Shown here piece after piece: positions 12,659 to 24,171 of a stretch of DNA of 24,171 nt. This stretch comes from a virus: the IMG/VR virus record IMGVR_UViG_3300036715_001058, positions 1-24,171 of that record; one strand, 5' to 3'. The first letter of the stretch is position 1. The number at the start of each line of letters is the position of its first letter. A program made the position numbers and the translations under genes. The notes under the pieces were generated by a model that was not told the DNA's origin, searched no databases, and saw nothing but the letters and a program-made list of their open reading frames with translations.

Positions 12659-14254
12659 CTAAGCCGCCATGTGTGTTGTATTAGAAGTCCCGGCTCGTAG
12701 TTTATCGCGCCAAGACTTTGTTTTTGCCTCTTTTGCTTTTTGTGGGGGTTCTTTACCCACTGCCAACTGTGCCAACCATGCGAGGCTATCTACGCAGTCA
12801 TCATGTACACCAGCCGGGAACCGTAGCATCTCATTTCTGGCTGTATCGTACCAGTCTCCCTCTGAGTTGAAAGAGACCATGCCCTGCTGCATACGCCCCT
12901 GTAATGCCCGACCCCGCGCCTGCTTGTCGGTGATAGGCCGCATCACGACGATCGAGGGGTAAAAACTCATCTCCCGCATACGTTTTTTCAGCAGAGCTTC
13001 GATGGAGCGATAAATCTGTCCATCCTCTACGCCTATTGTCAGGCTTGGATGATACCAGCGTTTAGCCGTATTGAGAATCGCATCCACGATGAGAAACGCA
13101 TCCCCGCTCTTAAACCGTACCATCTCTGCAATGTGCAGCGTGTCGTCACAGTCCTGCAATCCGACTGACCCCACAGTAAAGTCATTGTGCTGCTTCTCGC
13201 TGATGGCGAAGTCCCACGCGATAGATACGTGGCTCGTCCGACGTGGCGGCAGCGGCCCTCGTTTGAAATAGTCTTTCACGAAGTACGCGCCGTCATCCGG
13301 AACCGGGTTCTGCTGGTACAGCGCCGCCCAAAACCTATTAGCGATCGTGGCCTTAATCCGCCTTAGCTTCTTGATGTCGTACCGCACCTCATGCAGCGGG
13401 TCTCCTTTCAGGCGCAGCAGTTTGCCGTTGGCTGGCGCAACATCATACACAATAGCGTCTGTATCCAGATCAAGATACTCATCGTGCTCGGCAATGGCTG
13501 GGTACTTGATGATCTCAAACTGGTCAGACTCAGGGTCTGCTGCCATAGCCTGCTGTAGCCGCCCCGCCAAGTCATCATCGTGCCACCAAGTCTGGATCAC
13601 CAGTACCCCTGCGCCCGGCGCAAGCCGGGTGTATGCAGTAGAACCGTACCAGTCCCAAAGAGACTCGCGTGTCGTGGCGCTGTCCGCCTCTTCGGCGTTC
13701 TTGATCGGGTCGTCGATGATCAAAATATGCGCACCCTTACCTGTGATACCACCGCCCACACCTGCTGCAACATAGCCGCCTGCGTGACCATGTATTGACC
13801 ACTCTTCTGTCGAGCGGTTATCTGGGTGCAGCCGGGCATCAAATACGGACTGGTACGCAGGGTCATCAAAAAATGCCTTGATCTTTTTAGAGAACCCCAT
13901 TGCCAGAGAGATGTTATATGAGCAGGCAATGATCTCGTGGTCAGGGAAATTCCCTAAATGCCATGCCGGGAATGTTTTTGATGCGATCTCCGACTTACCG
14001 TGTCGCGGGGGCATGAGCAGCATCAGTCGTGGGCTAAGTCCTGCCTCCACGTCTTTTGAGAACTGCTCAAGTCGTCGGCAGATATCCTCGTGCACCCATC
14101 CTGCGGTGTATTTCGGATTCATGCGCTGGATGAACGGTAGCAGGTTTCGTTTTGCCAGAATACGTCCAGCAAGTTCCCGCTTTGCCGCAGTAACCTTCAT
14201 CGGCTCAGGCTTGGCTGCTGGCGCTGGCGTCAGTTTATTCTTCTTCGTCGTCAT
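12659..14254 (-). CDS. Terminase large subunit (ATPase-nuclease)
   Basis: The 531-aa packaging motor has an N-terminal ATPase with Walker A PPRHGKS (residues 82-88) and Walker B ILIIDDP (D181, D182), preceded by GGGITGKGAH. The C-terminal RNase-H-like nuclease shows the expected acidic residues in AWDFAISEKQHNDFTVGSVG, GVEDGQIYRSIEALL and HDDCVDSLAWLA. It cuts concatemeric DNA and drives it through the portal. Its start overlaps the small subunit by 20 nt, with AAGGA about 8 nt upstream of ATG at 14254. Length is typical. Confidence 0.95.
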   Translation of the reverse strand: MTTKKNKLTPAPAAKPEPMKVTAAKRELAGRILAKRNLLPFIQRMNPKYTAGWVHEDICRRLEQFSKDVEAGLSPRLMLLMPPRHGKSEIASKTFPAWHLGNFPDHEIIACSYNISLAMGFSKKIKAFFDDPAYQSVFDARLHPDNRSTEEWSIHGHAGGYVAAGVGGGITGKGAHILIIDDPIKNAEEADSATTRESLWDWYGSTAYTRLAPGAGVLVIQTWWHDDDLAGRLQQAMAADPESDQFEIIKYPAIAEHDEYLDLDTDAIVYDVAPANGKLLRLKGDPLHEVRYDIKKLRRIKATIANRFWAALYQQNPVPDDGAYFVKDYFKRGPLPPRRTSHVSIAWDFAISEKQHNDFTVGSVGLQDCDDTLHIAEMVRFKSGDAFLIVDAILNTAKRWYHPSLTIGVEDGQIYRSIEALLKKRMREMSFYPSIVVMRPITDKQARGRALQGRMQQGMVSFNSEGDWYDTARNEMLRFPAGVHDDCVDSLAWLAQLAVGKEPPQKAKEAKTKSWRDKLRAGTSNTTHMAA

Positions 14255-14879
14255 CTTCTAGTTCCTTAAACTTTACGTCGGTGACTTCCCCTGTGACTAT
14301 CTTCAGCAAATCAGCCGTGCTCATTCGTTCGAGCTGCTTCACTGTTACGCTGCCTGTGACATTCACATCGATGGTACGTTTAACTGGCTCATAATACCCG
14401 CACATCTTACCGACCTCGCGCCAAGCTCCGGTGAGTGCAGTCGGGTCTGCCATGACCTTCGCCATTTCCGCCGCTTCTAAAAATCCCTCCATGACCCGTT
14501 CACGTGTCATCTGGCAACTCTCTTCGTAGAGCGCTTTCTCTATGTCATATATCTTCAGAACCGCAGGGTCTTTTGCTAGGCGGTATGCGACTGTACCACC
14601 ATCCGAATATCCGGCGCGATGCGAGGCACCGAGAATAGAGTCGCCCTCCGCCCAGAACTTCACAAAGAGACGTTGCTTCTCTGTTAGCGGACGATCCGGA
14701 TTTGCCTTCAACACTTCTGGTAATGTGATTAGGTTGGGCGAAGTCTCCCGTAGCTTCTTTATTCGTTCCGCTTTCTTTTCCGGTGTGTTCTGAGTAGCGG
14801 GTTTTTTACGACGGGGTACTGGGGTCGTATCATCTCTGGCCCTGATCTTCAGCTCGCTTGGGTCTTTGCGTTTGGTCAT
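14235..14879 (-). CDS. Terminase small subunit (Terminase_2 type)
   Basis: After a basic disordered N-terminus (about 60 residues) comes LTEKQRLFVKFWAEGDSILG followed by ASHRAGYSDGGTVAYRLAKD, the helix-turn-helix pattern of Terminase_2 small subunits that bind packaging sites. The C-terminal part, with SVTVKQLERMSTADLLKIVTG and an acidic tail (DDDEEE), fits the oligomerisation and large-subunit-contact region. It is the first gene of the leftward block. GGAA lies 5 nt upstream of ATG at 14879. Confidence 0.88.
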   Translation of the reverse strand: MTKRKDPSELKIRARDDTTPVPRRKKPATQNTPEKKAERIKKLRETSPNLITLPEVLKANPDRPLTEKQRLFVKFWAEGDSILGASHRAGYSDGGTVAYRLAKDPAVLKIYDIEKALYEESCQMTRERVMEGFLEAAEMAKVMADPTALTGAWREVGKMCGYYEPVKRTIDVNVTGSVTVKQLERMSTADLLKIVTGEVTDVKFKELEDDDEEE

Positions 14880-15137
14880 GGTGTTTCCAGGTAAATTAAT
14901 GCGAAGTGTAATACGGCTGAAAAATCTTTTGAAAATTTTTTGAAAAATTTTTTGAAAAAATTTTATAAAAAAGTGTTCGGTTACGTGTCTTAGGCACCCC
15001 TCATCCCTCGTCAGCGCACACCACCCCCACTTCGGATTCCATATTCAAGTCCCCAATAAGGAGTCTCTTTACCCCCAGCCGCACGGCTTCGACTTTTCTA
15101 CGGCTCCGCTCTCCTTCCCGCTTTCCCACGCGCAGCG
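14880..15137. promoter_or_regulatory. Divergent intergenic region with phased A-tracts
   Basis: No gene is found here. Between 14926 and 14973 the motif TTGAAAAA occurs three times at 11-12 nt spacing (14929, 14940, 14952), close to one helical turn, which should bend the DNA. The rest (14980-15130) is C/T-rich on the plus strand without clear signals. The region separates the leftward late block from the rightward early block and probably holds promoters for both; no convincing leftward sigma70 promoter was identified. Confidence 0.55.
14940..14969 (+). promoter_or_regulatory. Candidate rightward early promoter
   Basis: TTGAAA (14940-14945) is separated by 18 nt from TATAAA (14964-14969), a reasonable sigma70 match embedded in phased A-tracts that would act like an UP or bending element. 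Transcription would start near 14976 and run into the early gene array. This rests on sequence match only. Confidence 0.45.
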
Positions 15138-15178
15138 CAGAGCGTTGCGAACCCCACGCAACGCTCTGTCACTCTGCT
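15138..15178 (+). repeat. Intergenic stem-loop family, copy 1 (with 41-nt direct repeat)
   Basis: CAGAGCGTTGCG pairs perfectly with CGCAACGCTCTG (12 bp) around loop AACCCCA, followed by TCACTCTGCT. The whole 41 nt recurs unchanged at 15414-15454. The stem has no T-tract after it, so it is unlike a standard terminator. It precedes the 57-aa gene. Confidence 0.85.
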
Positions 15179-15410: not shown

Positions 15411-15454
15411 TGACAGAGCGTTGCGAACCCCACGCAACGCTCTGTCACTCTGCT
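15411..15454 (+). repeat. Intergenic stem-loop family, copy 2
   Basis: A 15-bp perfect stem (15411-15425 with 15433-15447) closes the loop AACCCCA. The core and 3' flank (15414-15454) are identical to copy 1. It lies 7 nt after the stop of the 57-aa gene and 40 nt before the start of the next. Confidence 0.88.
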
Positions 15455-15773: not shown

Positions 15774-15801
15774 TACGTAGAGCGAACCCTCGCTCTACGT
15801 A
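15774..15801 (+). repeat. Intergenic stem-loop family, copy 3
   Basis: TACGTAGAGCGA pairs with TCGCTCTACGTA around ACCC (12 bp). Relative to copies 1 and 2, a C-G pair is replaced by T-A, a compensatory change. The flank CTCATCCTGCTTT follows. It begins 4 nt after the stop of the 91-aa gene. Confidence 0.85.
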
Positions 15802-15841
15802 CTCATCCTGCTTTGACATTATCAACCTGAAGGAGAACAAC

Positions 15842-16136: not shown

Positions 16137-16165
16137 TACGCAGAGTGAACACCACACTCTGCGTA
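16137..16165 (+). repeat. Intergenic stem-loop family, copy 4
   Basis: TACGCAGAGTG pairs with CACTCTGCGTA (11 bp) around loop AACACCA. A C-G pair of copies 1-3 is T-A here, again compensated. The 3' flank CTCATTCTGCTTA follows. It starts 4 nt after the stop of the 96-aa gene. Confidence 0.85.
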
Positions 16166-17104: not shown

Positions 17105-17142
17105 AAATCGTATAAATCATTTATCTCATTTAGGGGATTACC

Positions 17143-17430
17143 ATGATTATCGAAAGCGGAGTAATCGTAGCACTCGGATTACTTTTCACATTTCTTAAAT
17201 GCAGTTGGAAAGTTAGAGTAAAGATGTTGTCGAATACTCTGGCGATGGATGCAATTATTTTCGTCGGACTGACTCTGATCCATTGGGGATCATTCAGTGG
17301 GGTGATGGTTGCATCGACCGGAGCAATGATCTGTTCAGGCATGTTGTCACTTGGTCGATGGCTATTCGGATACGTCGAGAAGAACAAATATTACCCCGGC
17401 AGGTTCAGCATACTCAAACATCTGAGATAA
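17143..17430 (+). CDS. Small multi-pass membrane protein, 95 aa
   Basis: Hydrophobic segments at about residues 5-20, 34-48 and 52-70 predict two or three membrane spans, with a basic loop (CSWKVRVKM) and a basic C-terminal tail (EKNKYYPGRFSILKHLR). AGGGG lies 7 nt before ATG at 17143. It is the last gene before the repeat-rich origin-like region. Together with the upstream 160-aa protein it forms a membrane gene pair. Function is unknown. Confidence 0.7.
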   Translation: MIIESGVIVALGLLFTFLKCSWKVRVKMLSNTLAMDAIIFVGLTLIHWGSFSGVMVASTGAMICSGMLSLGRWLFGYVEKNKYYPGRFSILKHLR

Positions 17431-17489
17431 CTGATTTATGCCATTAATGGTATAAATCATTTAGCTAATATAAGTTGTCAAACTTACAC

Positions 17490-17793
17490 TGTTGGGATGT
17501 TGGTGTTGGGATCTTGAAAATAACTTTCATTCCTATATACACACACTCTTTTATTTTTATTTTCCTATATAAACTTTATATATAACTTCCCAACATCCCA
17601 ACATTTAGAAGAAAAATAAGGAAATAAGTATATAAATCAAGGAGTTAGGAGTGTTGGGATATTTTTTAAAAGTCCAACATTGTTGGGAGATTTCCCCAAC
17701 ATTTCGGGTGTTTTGGCGACGAAGAAAAATTATTTTCCAATTGCGAAGGCAGACTGCTCAGAGCAATCGGGCATTTCTTCACAAGTCCCAACA
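17490..17793. other. Candidate replication origin with TGTTGGGA iterons
   Basis: TGTTGGGA occurs at 17490, 17504, 17652 and 17681 on the plus strand and as TCCCAACA at 17588, 17596 and 17786. Partial copies lie at 17498-17503, 17673-17679 and 17694-17701. The first plus-strand group and the first minus-strand pair face each other across about 76 bp of very AT-rich DNA (17512-17587), and a 14-nt arm (17490-17503) is perfectly complementary to 17590-17603. Such iterons beside an AT-rich segment are typical of replication-initiator binding sites; a repressor/operator array is the alternative. The surrounding gap 17431-17861 contains no supported gene. Confidence 0.6.
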
Positions 17794-17797
17794 CAAA

Positions 17798-17826
17798 TGG
17801 ACTTTGTGAACACCACACAAAGTCCA
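17798..17826 (+). repeat. Intergenic stem-loop family, copy 7
   Basis: TGGACTTTGTG pairs with CACAAAGTCCA (11 bp) around AACACCA, the same loop as copy 4, and is followed by CTCATTCCGCCTAT, matching the copy 4 flank. The stem itself is unrelated in sequence, so loop and flank are conserved while the stem is kept only by pairing. It lies between the iteron region and the 74-aa gene. Confidence 0.8.
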
Positions 17827-17861
17827 CTCATTCCGCCTATTTGTCACCAAAAGGAGAGATC

Positions 17862-18086
17862 ATGACCTATACAGAATTGAACAAGAAGTATAAAAAACTA
17901 GAAGAAGAGTACAAAGAAATTTCAAATAGTATGGAGTTACTAACGGCAGAAAAACTGGACGATTACACAGTCAGTAAAGAAGTACTGAATGCACGTCGTA
18001 CGACATTTCTTCAACTTCAAACAACACGCTCTATGTTGCTATTCCAAATAAGCGATGTACTGGAAGAGATGCGTAAAGCAGTGTAG
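17862..18086 (+). CDS. Coiled-coil early protein, 74 aa
   Basis: ATG at 17862 has AAGGAGAG about 5-6 nt upstream. The protein opens MTYTELNKKYKKLEEEYKEI and is almost entirely helical with heptad spacing; a second helix (ARRTTFLQLQTTRSMLLFQI) follows a short turn, giving a helical hairpin. It resembles small phage proteins of unknown role. It is followed by a terminator-like hairpin. Confidence 0.75.
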   Translation: MTYTELNKKYKKLEEEYKEISNSMELLTAEKLDDYTVSKEVLNARRTTFLQLQTTRSMLLFQISDVLEEMRKAV

Positions 18087-20413: not shown

Positions 20414-21202
20414 ATGAATACATACACACCGAAAGAACTTCTAAACATTATCGAAAAACTGCACGCTTTTGGCATTGCGGTGAAACAGGCAATAGGCAAC
20501 CCCTATAGCGACAGCCATAAATCTCTTTTAGCGAACGGCCTTTGCCTCAATATAAACCGTATATGCCCTGATACCGATGTAGTCGAATTCTTTTGCACGG
20601 TCATGCTACGTGGTATGAAGTACCCGTTCAATGACAACGATGCCACAAAGTACAGGCACGAAGTACTTGACGGAACTCTCTATAAGAATAAACATCGCTT
20701 GCAGTTTATCCACATGATGGCGAACCGAGAGCTGCTTACAGAGTACGTCGAGTTCTCTTTACGTCAGATCGAATTTTTTGAACAAGCTGATGCGTACCTT
20801 GCGAAATTTTGTCGCCTCGTTCGTCGCAAACATAGAGATAGACTCACTGAAGACGAGGCTATCAAGTACGCCGAAATGGACATTAACAAGCACAGTCTCT
20901 GTGCTTGTCTAAACACATACAACCGCATTGCCGAAGGAAATGTACGTAACCTTCGGCATTATTTGCATTGTGTGTTATTTAACGGCGAGGATCTTCCATT
21001 CAATGAGAACAGCTCAGAGTTTCGTGAGGAAGGGGACAACGGCGCAAGAATGCTTAACCAAAAACGGTTAAAGTTCCTCATAGATATGCAGTACAGAAGA
21101 ACGCGTAGTGTTATGCACAATAAGTACTTACTGAAAAACGGCTTTCTTTGGCGTTTTGCTGAATACACTAGGTCGTCCGATTTTCCTAATAATGAGCAAT
21201 AG
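20414..21202 (+). CDS. Phage protein with internal duplication, 262 aa
   Basis: Two halves resemble each other: residues about 42-100 (GLCLNINRICPDTDVVEFF, MLRGMKYPFNDNDATKYR, NKHRLQFI) and about 161-223 (SLCACLNTYNRIAEG, VLFNGEDLPFNENSSEFR, NQKRLKFLI). Each half fits a pattern seen in small single-domain phage proteins with C-x-N and G-x-x-x-PF-N motifs, so this may be a tandem fusion. The start is uncertain: ATG at 20414 has no clear SD and a TTG at 20381 adds 11 residues. Two strong hairpins (20886-20908 and 20929-20958) lie inside the second half. Confidence 0.7.
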   Translation: MNTYTPKELLNIIEKLHAFGIAVKQAIGNPYSDSHKSLLANGLCLNINRICPDTDVVEFFCTVMLRGMKYPFNDNDATKYRHEVLDGTLYKNKHRLQFIHMMANRELLTEYVEFSLRQIEFFEQADAYLAKFCRLVRRKHRDRLTEDEAIKYAEMDINKHSLCACLNTYNRIAEGNVRNLRHYLHCVLFNGEDLPFNENSSEFREEGDNGARMLNQKRLKFLIDMQYRRTRSVMHNKYLLKNGFLWRFAEYTRSSDFPNNEQ

Positions 21203-21310: not shown

Positions 21311-21371
21311 AAATAATATTGCCAGAGCTACTACAGTCAATTTGACTGTAGTAGCTCTGGCAATATTATTT
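21311..21371. repeat. 61-nt perfect palindrome (30-bp arms, 1-nt centre)
   Basis: The 30 nt at 21311-21340 are the exact reverse complement of 21342-21371, with a single T between. The arms have AT-rich outer ends and a mixed core (GCCAGAGCTACTACAGTCAA). It is much longer than needed for a terminator. The direct repeat ACTCGGAGAA lies on both sides at 21290-21299 and 21421-21430. The intergenic stretch 21203-21434 holds no supported gene. Confidence 0.9.
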
Positions 21372-21895: not shown

Positions 21896-24171
21896 ATGCT
21901 AACCACATTCTTTAAAGCAAGCATTCCGCTTACTAAGTCGTTCAAGAAAGAAAAAGACGGCACAATCAACAAAACCTCTTACCCGAATGTCTATGAGGTT
22001 ACATCTATAGCAGAAGATGTTAAAGACATGAAACAGTTTGCGGCAATGATCAAGAAACATGCAGGTTATGGTCATTGTCTGGTCAAAGGAAACCCAACAC
22101 GAGATCTGACTTCTGAATCTCGCGCAGGTACTACAGACAGTAATGCAGCAACCGAATGGATCGTATTCGACGTTGACGGATTACCGAACGTAAAAACCCC
22201 AGACGATTTTATGAAGCTGATCGGCTTCAGTAACGTATCGTATGTTGTCCAATATTCTGCCAGTTACGGCATAGAAAATAACGATCTGCGTTGCCATATA
22301 TTTGTGCGTATAGACAAACCGATGGCAGCTCCGCTGATTAAGCAATGGCTTATCCAATTGAACCATACAGTTCCTGCTCTACGCGATGCGATGACATTGA
22401 CTAAGACAGGCAACTCGTTGAGTTGGGCACTCGACATATCCGCTTGCCAGAACGATAAGCTGCTCTATATTGCACCGCCTAAATTAACAGGCATACGCGA
22501 TCCTCTCGGTAAAAGCCCACGTATCGATTACATTCAAAAATCGGCAGCATGTTTGACTATTGCAGGCGCGATCAACTCCACTACTCAGAACCGCAATCTG
22601 ACGAACAAGCGTATTAATGAGATACGCCTGTCTATGGGATACCCTGAGCGAAAAACATCATACAAAATGCACGGGAACATGGAAGTAATGGTGAAGCCGG
22701 ATAGCTGCATCGTCACTGACATCAAATCAGAACGCGGCTACGTGTATTTCAATCTTAACGGCGGAGATAGCTGGGGCTACTACCATCGGGAAGACAACCC
22801 AGACTACATCCTCAATTTTAAGGGTGAGCCTGCTTACCTCACAAAAGAACTGATCCCTGAATATTGGGAACAGATCACAACCGAAACAACGCGCATCAAT
22901 TCTAATGGCATCGTGTTTTTAGCGTTCTGCGATCGTAAGACAGGTGTGTACTGGCGGGGCACTTATGACGCCAGCACAAACTTCCTCAACATCAACATGG
23001 CGAAAAATGAGACGCAAGTGCGCCATTTTGCTAAGCAGAACGGTGTGCCTCTTGGGGAATACATCCCAGAATGGGATTTAATTTTCGACCCACAGGACAC
23101 GACACGTGTTGATGTACAGAACAAAGTCGTGAATTTGTTTGAGCCGACAGACTACATGCTGAAAAAGCCTCGGTCACAGCCTAACTGCCCTAAAGTCATC
23201 CATAAAGTTATCCATCATGCGCTAGGCAGCGACGATGCAGCATACGAGCACTTCATCAATTGGGTCGCGTTCATTCTGCAAAATCGCACTATGGCAAAAA
23301 CTGCCTGGATATTGACGGGTACACAAGGCACAGGCAAAGGTGTACTTATGGGTAAAATCCTGCGTCCTATTTTCGGCGTAAATCAGACTGCGGTACGTCG
23401 GGCCACAGAGCTGAACGAAAAATATAACGACTATATGGAACGAGCGCTGCTGTTCTTTGTTGACGAAATCGAGGTCAAGATATTCAGCAACGAAAAAGGC
23501 GTGATGGCCGATATCAAGAACTATATCGTCGAAGAATTGATCACGATTCGTGCGATGTATAAGACGGCTCGTGAAGTGCCAAATTACTGTTCGTTGATAT
23601 TCAATTCAAACAAACCTACACCAGTCACCATCGATAAGGAAGATCGCCGTTTTAACGTCGGCAAGTATCAGCCTGATAAGCTCGTACTCACAGATGCTGA
23701 GTACGACAATATCGAAAACGAGCTGCAAGCATTTCATGATCATCTCATGGGGATTCAAGTGGATACGCAAAAAGCGCGTACTCCATTAATGTCCCAAGAA
23801 CGTGACGAAATGATGTCGATCAGCGAGACGTCTTTGGACTCAGCAGTATCGGCTATGCGTGAAGGATCGTTAGAATTCTTCATCGAGCAGTTACCAACGA
23901 CAGACCGTTATATGCGCAATCAGATTGAGCGTAACCGAGTCGAAGACTATACCGATTGCCTGAAAGCAGTAATTGAGCATACGGATATGGAGACTGGTAT
24001 ATGCAAAATCAGTAGAGATACCCTGCGCGGATTACTGGAGTATGTAGTAGGCAATATCCCAGAATCCCCGCACAAGTTCACATCTATGCTCAAACACCAT
24101 CGCATACACATGAAGACAGTGCGCATCGGTAAAGAGACGCCATCCGGGACGACAGTTACATGGGTCGATCT
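21896..24171 (+). CDS. Primase-helicase (AEP-like primase plus SF3-type helicase), partial
   Basis: The frame from ATG 21896 (GGGGAG close upstream) is open to the window end, 758 codons. The N-terminal part shows the three motifs of an archaeo-eukaryotic-type primase: FDVDG (D92, D94), the LRCHIFV histidine (H134), and LDISACQ (D180). The C-terminal part is an SF3-like, DUF5906-type ATPase with Walker A GTQGTGKG (G475 to G482, K481), Walker B LLFFVDEIE (D523, E524), then FNSNKPTPVTIDKEDRRF with the sensor Asn and Arg finger region. It would prime and unwind DNA at the phage origin. The C-terminus is cut by the edge. Confidence 0.9.
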   Translation, partial: MLTTFFKASIPLTKSFKKEKDGTINKTSYPNVYEVTSIAEDVKDMKQFAAMIKKHAGYGHCLVKGNPTRDLTSESRAGTTDSNAATEWIVFDVDGLPNVKTPDDFMKLIGFSNVSYVVQYSASYGIENNDLRCHIFVRIDKPMAAPLIKQWLIQLNHTVPALRDAMTLTKTGNSLSWALDISACQNDKLLYIAPPKLTGIRDPLGKSPRIDYIQKSAACLTIAGAINSTTQNRNLTNKRINEIRLSMGYPERKTSYKMHGNMEVMVKPDSCIVTDIKSERGYVYFNLNGGDSWGYYHREDNPDYILNFKGEPAYLTKELIPEYWEQITTETTRINSNGIVFLAFCDRKTGVYWRGTYDASTNFLNINMAKNETQVRHFAKQNGVPLGEYIPEWDLIFDPQDTTRVDVQNKVVNLFEPTDYMLKKPRSQPNCPKVIHKVIHHALGSDDAAYEHFINWVAFILQNRTMAKTAWILTGTQGTGKGVLMGKILRPIFGVNQTAVRRATELNEKYNDYMERALLFFVDEIEVKIFSNEKGVMADIKNYIVEELITIRAMYKTAREVPNYCSLIFNSNKPTPVTIDKEDRRFNVGKYQPDKLVLTDAEYDNIENELQAFHDHLMGIQVDTQKARTPLMSQERDEMMSISETSLDSAVSAMREGSLEFFIEQLPTTDRYMRNQIERNRVEDYTDCLKAVIEHTDMETGICKISRDTLRGLLEYVVGNIPESPHKFTSMLKHHRIHMKTVRIGKETPSGTTVTWVD

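Follow-up and report, generated by a model that had tools for sequence, protein, structure and literature searches.

The locus examined here raises the question of what an array of one 8-nucleotide word, repeated in both orientations between early phage genes, might be for. The window (the whole stretch of DNA analyzed, a virus record of 24,171 bases) is a partial contig in which structural genes lie on the minus strand, with portal, terminase, and major head protein assigned by family match, and early genes lie on the plus strand, several of their products having no family match. Its nearest named relatives are the KPP25-group Pseudomonas phages, whose portal and primase-helicase are about 44% identical to those of the window, and a Herminiimonas genome contig holds one homolog at 62% identity. 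The window phage belongs to the KPP25-like podovirus group. A sequence-only reading had proposed that the array is an initiator-dependent replication origin. That proposal gains support from arrays in relatives, from the offset of an IHF element, from arrays in distant phages with DUF5906-type primases, and from the placement of TTTGGTTA in phage NrS-1, and the TGTTGGGA array is very probably the replication origin of this phage. The origin region is best explained as 17490-17793, or about 17.43-17.85 kb with its flanks. Feature coordinates are collected in Table 1.

Table 1. Features of the window in and around the TGTTGGGA array, with the gene of the proposed initiator.
Feature	Position	Strand	Remarks
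Small early gene just upstream of array	17143..17430	+	Homologs in 53 relatives; synteny marker
Left iteron group: TGTTGGGA (17490-17497), partial TGTTGG (17498-17503), TGTTGGGA (17504-17511)	17490..17511	+	
AT-rich pyrimidine-biased core, probable DNA unwinding element	17512..17587	.	80% A/T, 66% pyrimidine
Right opposed iteron group: two abutting TGTTGGGA (17588-17595 and 17596-17603)	17588..17603	-	
Putative host IHF site AATCAAGGAGTTA, perfect WATCAANNNNTTR	17635..17647	+	+117 from AT-core start; consensus match only
Iteron TGTTGGGA	17652..17659	+	Exact
Partial iteron TGTTGG	17674..17679	-	
Iteron TGTTGGGA	17681..17688	+	Exact
Iteron with one mismatch, TGTTGGGG	17694..17701	-	
Outermost iteron TGTTGGGA	17786..17793	-	Exact
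Small early gene directly downstream of array	17862..18086	+	Without homolog in the fetched loci
Proposed initiator: AEP primase + NrS-1-type D5/SF3-like ring helicase (DUF5906)	21896..24169	+	758 aa read, open at contig end

The seven exact copies and additional partial copies within about 300 bp that the sequence-only reading had described were confirmed. All exact copies of TGTTGGGA in the window fall within 304 bp, with none elsewhere, compared to 0.72 copies expected in the window; none of 100 dinucleotide shuffles reached seven, and when the window was simulated 200 times with a second-order Markov model, no 8-mer clustered more than four times within 310 bp. The array is far from chance. 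Ten TGTTGG cores are present altogether, five on each strand, and the array, as in iteron origins, consists of clustered copies of one short motif in non-coding DNA with a probable AT-rich unwinding element adjoining the repeats. No Rfam match was found, and neither a sigma-70-like promoter nor a terminator-like site was found in 17400-17870. The array contains no perfect DnaA box; in the window such boxes occur only at 20706 and 21111, and the total number of DnaA boxes in the window is at chance level. GC skew had been suggested as a check on the origin, and does not discriminate because its extremes (a minimum at 16.6 kb in the window and an extreme of opposite sign at 23.9 kb in KPP25) both coincide with the gene-strand switch.

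The core between the opposed iteron groups has the length of 76 bp given by the same reading, though its description as nearly pure A/T does not hold, the composition being 80% A/T. The AT-richest 120 bp of the whole window begins at 17518, and TTCCTATATA occurs twice within the core (17530-17539 and 17562-17571). The suggestion that the opposed groups could form a hairpin with a 14-bp stem also stands: the inverted pair (17490-17503 and 17590-17603) is perfect, its loop is 86 nt, and the single-stranded fold of 17486-17610 has z = -4.1. This stem-loop lies 4.1 kb from the replication gene, and further iterons lie outside the stem. The IHF consensus is WATCAANNNNTTR, and a match to it in the window is unremarkable taken alone (1.06 expected); going by the sequences of relatives discussed below, the element is significant as a positionally conserved family element and not singly.

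The gene of the proposed initiator begins at 21896, downstream of the array by 4.1 kb and on the same strand, in agreement with the earlier placement of a primase-helicase about 4 kb downstream. Its product matches DUF5906 and a PHROG of unknown function. When a profile of 54 relatives was searched against the PDB, the C-terminal region of the NrS-1 polymerase was the sole match (hmmsearch E 5.6e-58), and hhalign to that region gave 99.9%. The AlphaFold2 model of the protein (pLDDT 89.8) likewise matches the NrS-1 structure 6k9c (Foldseek E 2.9e-28; VIA Z 30.4, rmsd 3.2, 395 residues), and the next structural matches are the SaPI5 primase-helicase (7ola, second among families in the structural ranking, Z 17.7), ASFV PrimPol, and poxvirus D5/E5. 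The N-terminal 325 residues, modelled separately (pLDDT 93.1), best match AEP primase-polymerases, if weakly (cyanophage S-2L PrimPol, E 1.7e-3, and the LigD polymerase domain), while the N-terminal halves of the NrS-1 and window enzymes could not be aligned by sequence. Residues D92, D94, H134, and D180 are invariant in the 54 sequences, and presumably correspond to the AEP metal-site motifs (DxD, H, D). Taken together, the C-terminal match, the N-terminal match, and these invariant residues indicate, at the level of predicted structure, that the protein joins an AEP primase to a ring helicase of the NrS-1/D5 type. A Toprim-type primase of the P4 kind was ruled out, since the N-terminus matches the AEP fold.

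We would like to note two further observations on this gene and its relatives. Intein-like insertions of about 280 aa are found in three relatives' primase-helicases (L069 10001-13195, L072 6138-9353, and L080 10001-13240), where they sit just before or at the start of DUF5906 and match the Pfam intein splicing domain, with two scoring above the curated cut-off and L069 just below it. Upstream of the window's primase-helicase lies a perfect 30-bp inverted repeat with a 1-nt loop (21311-21371), which is either a real element or an assembly artefact; an exact match to one of its arms was sought in the viral contig collection and none was found.

To compare the surroundings of this enzyme, a family-alignment scan yielded 80 viral loci, which with other fetched loci and after removal of near-duplicates left 78 loci (1.40 Mb). 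Both the AT core and the IHF slot were picked after inspecting sequences. The loci are related to one another, so that the following counts do not tally independent events. In 66 of the 78 loci, compared to 3.9 expected, the 120-bp stretch with the highest A/T content in the whole locus is at most 800 bp upstream of the primase-helicase start. A recurring order is seen in these relatives, in which a short repeat group is followed by a core that is rich in A/T, biased to pyrimidines, and often includes a CTATATAGGAA-like element, and then by opposed repeats, a ATCAANNACTTA element, and often more repeats, the repeats in both orientations continuing beyond the core. Repeats in both orientations reached p<=0.01 in 27 of the 78 cores, compared to 15 of the 234 random stretches; strong repeat clusters were found in 13 of 78 cores with only 7 in the remainder of the 1.40 Mb, and inverted arms of at least 10 bp around the core in 28% of relatives versus 4% of controls. 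Nevertheless, exact-word arrays rise above chance in only about one third of relatives, many having few and degenerate repeats, and this counts against the origin reading, as does the distance between array and primase-helicase gene in the window and in KPP25, whose array (26.4-26.8 kb) is 12 kb from that gene.

The conserved element in the relatives' loci fits the IHF consensus. Perfect IHF sites number 64 in the 1.40 Mb on both strands, and 22 of them, in 21 of the 78 loci, sit 50-150 bp into the core, where 0.24 would be expected; most of these are at +96 to +122. At control AT peaks a perfect consensus was found in 1 of 234, or in 0 of 234 with wider spacing. Most of the 78 loci have no perfect match, which likewise counts against the origin reading. 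The slot was an after-the-fact choice, but the enrichment far exceeds what such a choice could produce. IHF sites are known to assist several plasmid and chromosomal origins (PMC4980987).

What is conserved is the anatomy, while the repeated word differs by lineage. KPP25 carries eight copies of TGTTACGA, and the repeats at other loci are TGTTTCAC (L081), TGTTACAC (L083), GTTCCGAA (L092), TTCCAATC (L036), TCTCATTC (L056), and TTGCTAGG (L057). Mapped on the primase tree, repeat type changes 6 times versus 13.6 when shuffled, with none of 5000 shuffles as low. This pattern in the sequences would be consistent with co-evolution of repeat and enzyme but is not proof of it, because any trait inherited by lineage would track the tree likewise. 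The exact TGTTGGGA iteron is common to none of the relatives, and the search for TGTTGGGA clusters in other phages and prophages that the sequence-only reading had recommended accordingly yields a single match, in the unrelated prophage locus L018. This locus was rejected as a relative of the array, having no similarity to the window at the DNA level or in translation, and resembling a prophage integrase/tRNA flank; it bears TGTTGGG/TGTTGGGA in both orientations at 14201-14290, between a tRNA-like sequence and a possible integrase start at the contig end, and these copies are perhaps arm-type sites. Single copies of TGTTGGGA in L009 (inside long coding frames) and L014 (inside a homolog of the 17143 gene) were read as chance. 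Gene-gap calling missed most arrays when used to find them, because spurious ORFs cover the repeats.

The small genes next to the array bear on its placement. In the relatives listed, homologs of the 17143-17430 gene precede the primase-helicase by about 2.0 to 2.8 kb, and as the window array adjoins this gene, the place of the origin relative to the primase-helicase appears to have changed in the window lineage, as in KPP25. No homolog of the 17862-18086 gene was found in the fetched loci. A 27-bp repeat (17106-17132 and 17446-17472, 85% identical) brackets the 17143-17430 gene.

Beyond the KPP25-like phages, and NrS-1 apart, the analysis covered eight more phages whose primases are of the DUF5906 type, and six of them have an array of a short word in both orientations 3' of the primase gene. 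These are Moraxella Mcat1 (GTGCAGG x8), Pseudomonas KT1 (TGGTTAG x6; this record is unannotated and the gene end was taken from the match), Halomonas H4907 (TGTCTGA x9), Stenotrophomonas S1 (TGTGCGG x11), Vibrio 1.017 (GTATCCG x5), and Stenotrophomonas Suzuki (TGTGACA x9, 0.7 kb away). An array was also sought near the DUF5906-type primases of Vibrio K294 and phiA008, and none was seen. In NrS-1 itself, an array of the motif GGTTACACTT in both orientations begins a few bases past the polymerase gene. The NrS-1 polymerase requires an 8-nt recognition sequence, TTTGGTTA, to start synthesis (PMC8718748), and this sequence occurs once, at 17198 within the array, in the 36,853 of 37,159 NrS-1 bases searched. 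No other outside evidence ties such arrays to initiation as strongly as the position of TTTGGTTA inside the NrS-1 array. The same polymerase was later reported to recognize a second word that is shorter and more efficient (GTG, with GTGA/GTGG the best forms; PMC8718748), and TTTGGTTA is therefore not its only start site. The annotated hypothetical protein NRS1_29 (L016 17055-17456) overlaps the NrS-1 array, translates to repeats, and is probably not a gene.

Comparison with known systems supports the view that the window origin is an iteron origin of a primase-helicase replicon, which is a known kind. The window resembles NrS-1 in its homologous D5-type ring helicase, AEP-type N-terminus, and repeat array in both orientations, that of NrS-1 lying beside its gene and holding TTTGGTTA (PMC8718748); the NrS-1 array differs in being 3' of the gene and in its motif, and the window phage differs in being a KPP25-like podovirus with an N-terminal half that does not align. 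The SaPI replicons (Rep/PriRep) and SCCmec Cch2 likewise have a self-loading initiator helicase of the D5 type and a short-iteron origin near its gene, and passages of the source describe their C-terminal domains (of SaPI Rep and Cch2) as binding the iterons, with no mention in those passages of an IHF element (PMC7581432). Unlike the window phage, these are Gram-positive satellites, and the sequence relation is too weak for profile search. P4 alpha combines primase, SF3-type helicase, and origin binding in one protein (PMC4234260), as may the window enzyme by analogy with P4 alpha and ori-crr, although the P4 primase is of the Toprim type and that of the window is an AEP. In pRN1 ORF904 and Bordetella BIP-1, an AEP prim-pol-SF3 helicase is accompanied by an inverted repeat around a 58-nt loop as origin, the stem-loop origin of pRN1 being a proposed one (PMC4234260). 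The fusion of an AEP to an SF3-type helicase and the inverted repeat are shared with the window, but pRN1 has no iterons, and the window array reaches well past the inverted pair. Near the published stem-loop region of BIP-1 we found a weak four-copy cluster of CTCGTTT. Lastly, the plasmid origins of RK2, R6K, pSC101, and P1 comprise iterons, an AT-rich unwinding element, and in some an IHF site (PMC4980987), all of which have counterparts in the window, where the IHF site is a consensus match. Those plasmids use RepA/TrfA-type initiators together with host DnaB, whereas the phage enzyme is itself a primase-helicase, and the window array, unlike iteron plasmid origins, has no mismatch-free DnaA box. 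No RepA/TrfA-family initiator was found among the early window proteins searched, several of which have no family match, on a contig that is partial.

From these likenesses we propose how the origin may work. The phage's own AEP-primase/D5-type ring helicase, the most likely initiator, would bind the TGTTGGGA iterons as double-stranded DNA and, by analogy with SaPI Rep and Cch2, would assemble on the two opposed iteron groups with the assistance of host IHF bending the DNA at 17635-17647. Since these groups flank the AT core, two hexamers could assemble face to face; the core would then melt and two rings would load onto the strands. The AEP domain would prime, possibly opposite an iteron sequence as the NrS-1 polymerase does, and forks would depart in both directions. 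We put the probability that the array is the origin and that the primase-helicase is also the protein binding its iterons at roughly 0.77. It is conceivable, if doubtful, that the iteron has two roles, being bound as double-stranded DNA by the D5-type helicase and, after melting, acting as the single-stranded template word for primer-free AEP synthesis, as TTTGGTTA does in NrS-1. If so, one protein would read both origin identity and primer start, the two would drift in step so that each lineage of DUF5906 phages came to have its own replicon specificity, and primer-free synthesis would start next to TGTTGGGA or TCCCAACA.

Two alternatives retain an origin here and assign the work differently. 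Another phage protein, an early DNA-binding one of no recognized family, might bind the iterons and recruit the primase-helicase; several early proteins without family match are available for this role, and the gap between array and primase-helicase gene (4.1 kb in the window, 12 kb in KPP25) would suit it. We nevertheless consider it unlikely, as the core lies directly upstream of the primase-helicase in most relatives and directly downstream in the distant DUF5906 phages, the only small array-adjacent protein, the 17862 product, has no homolog in the fetched loci, and SaPI Rep and Cch2, of the same helicase kind, bind their own iterons according to passages of PMC7581432. A stem-loop origin of the pRN1/BIP-1 type, in which the 14-bp inverted pair with its AT-rich loop is functional and the outer repeats are incidental, is similarly unlikely. 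The perfect 14-bp arms around the 86-nt loop, the enrichment of long arms around relatives' cores, and the pRN1 origin itself, a 21-nt stem and 58-nt loop beside a prim-pol/SF3 gene (PMC4234260), speak for it; yet half of the iterons (17652-17793) are outside the stem, relatives' repeats also extend past the core in both orientations, and opposed copies of one motif automatically make an inverted repeat.

The remaining alternatives dispense with an origin. The position of the array between early genes, and multiple short sites in both orientations that would suit a DNA-binding regulator, are compatible with operator sites through which a phage repressor or activator controls early transcription, but this is quite improbable given that 17400-17870 contains no sigma-70-like promoter or terminator-like site and that such a role would account neither for the AT core and the IHF element nor for the association with the primase-helicase across relatives. 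That same association is also left unexplained if the repeats are arm-type sites for an integrase or serve in partition or packaging, which we regard as highly improbable: the prophage L018 does have TGTTGGGA copies in an integrase-like setting, but the window proteins searched include no integrase, and the terminase genes are 3 kb from the array.

If the array is an iteron origin served by the primase-helicase, its anatomy has wider use. DUF5906 primase-helicases are common in phages and satellites, and the literature we found describes their origins in individual cases only, satellite islands among them. An AT core flanked by opposed short repeats next to a primase gene, to which many KPP25-like phages add an IHF consensus some 100 bp into that core, would serve as a rule for finding them; the rule predicts an origin in dozens of phages, KPP25 included, and reads the NrS-1 repeat region, annotated as a hypothetical protein, as an origin. 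As the iteron words differ by lineage and follow the enzyme tree, they offer natural pairs for testing how initiator specificity evolves.

Separately from the array, the early region of the window contains a family of five plus-strand hairpins (15136-15168, 15412-15444, about 15778-15803, 16137-16163, and 17798-17826), several of which lie 40-60 bp upstream of small early genes. Seven other relative loci were checked for a narrower form of the hairpin loop motif, and none contained it. The five hairpins share the loop GAAC(A/C)CC and the 3' flank ACTCATTCTGC, while their stems differ yet remain paired, with compensatory changes in 10 of the 13 predicted pairs, and they could be hairpin promoters or 5' leader elements.
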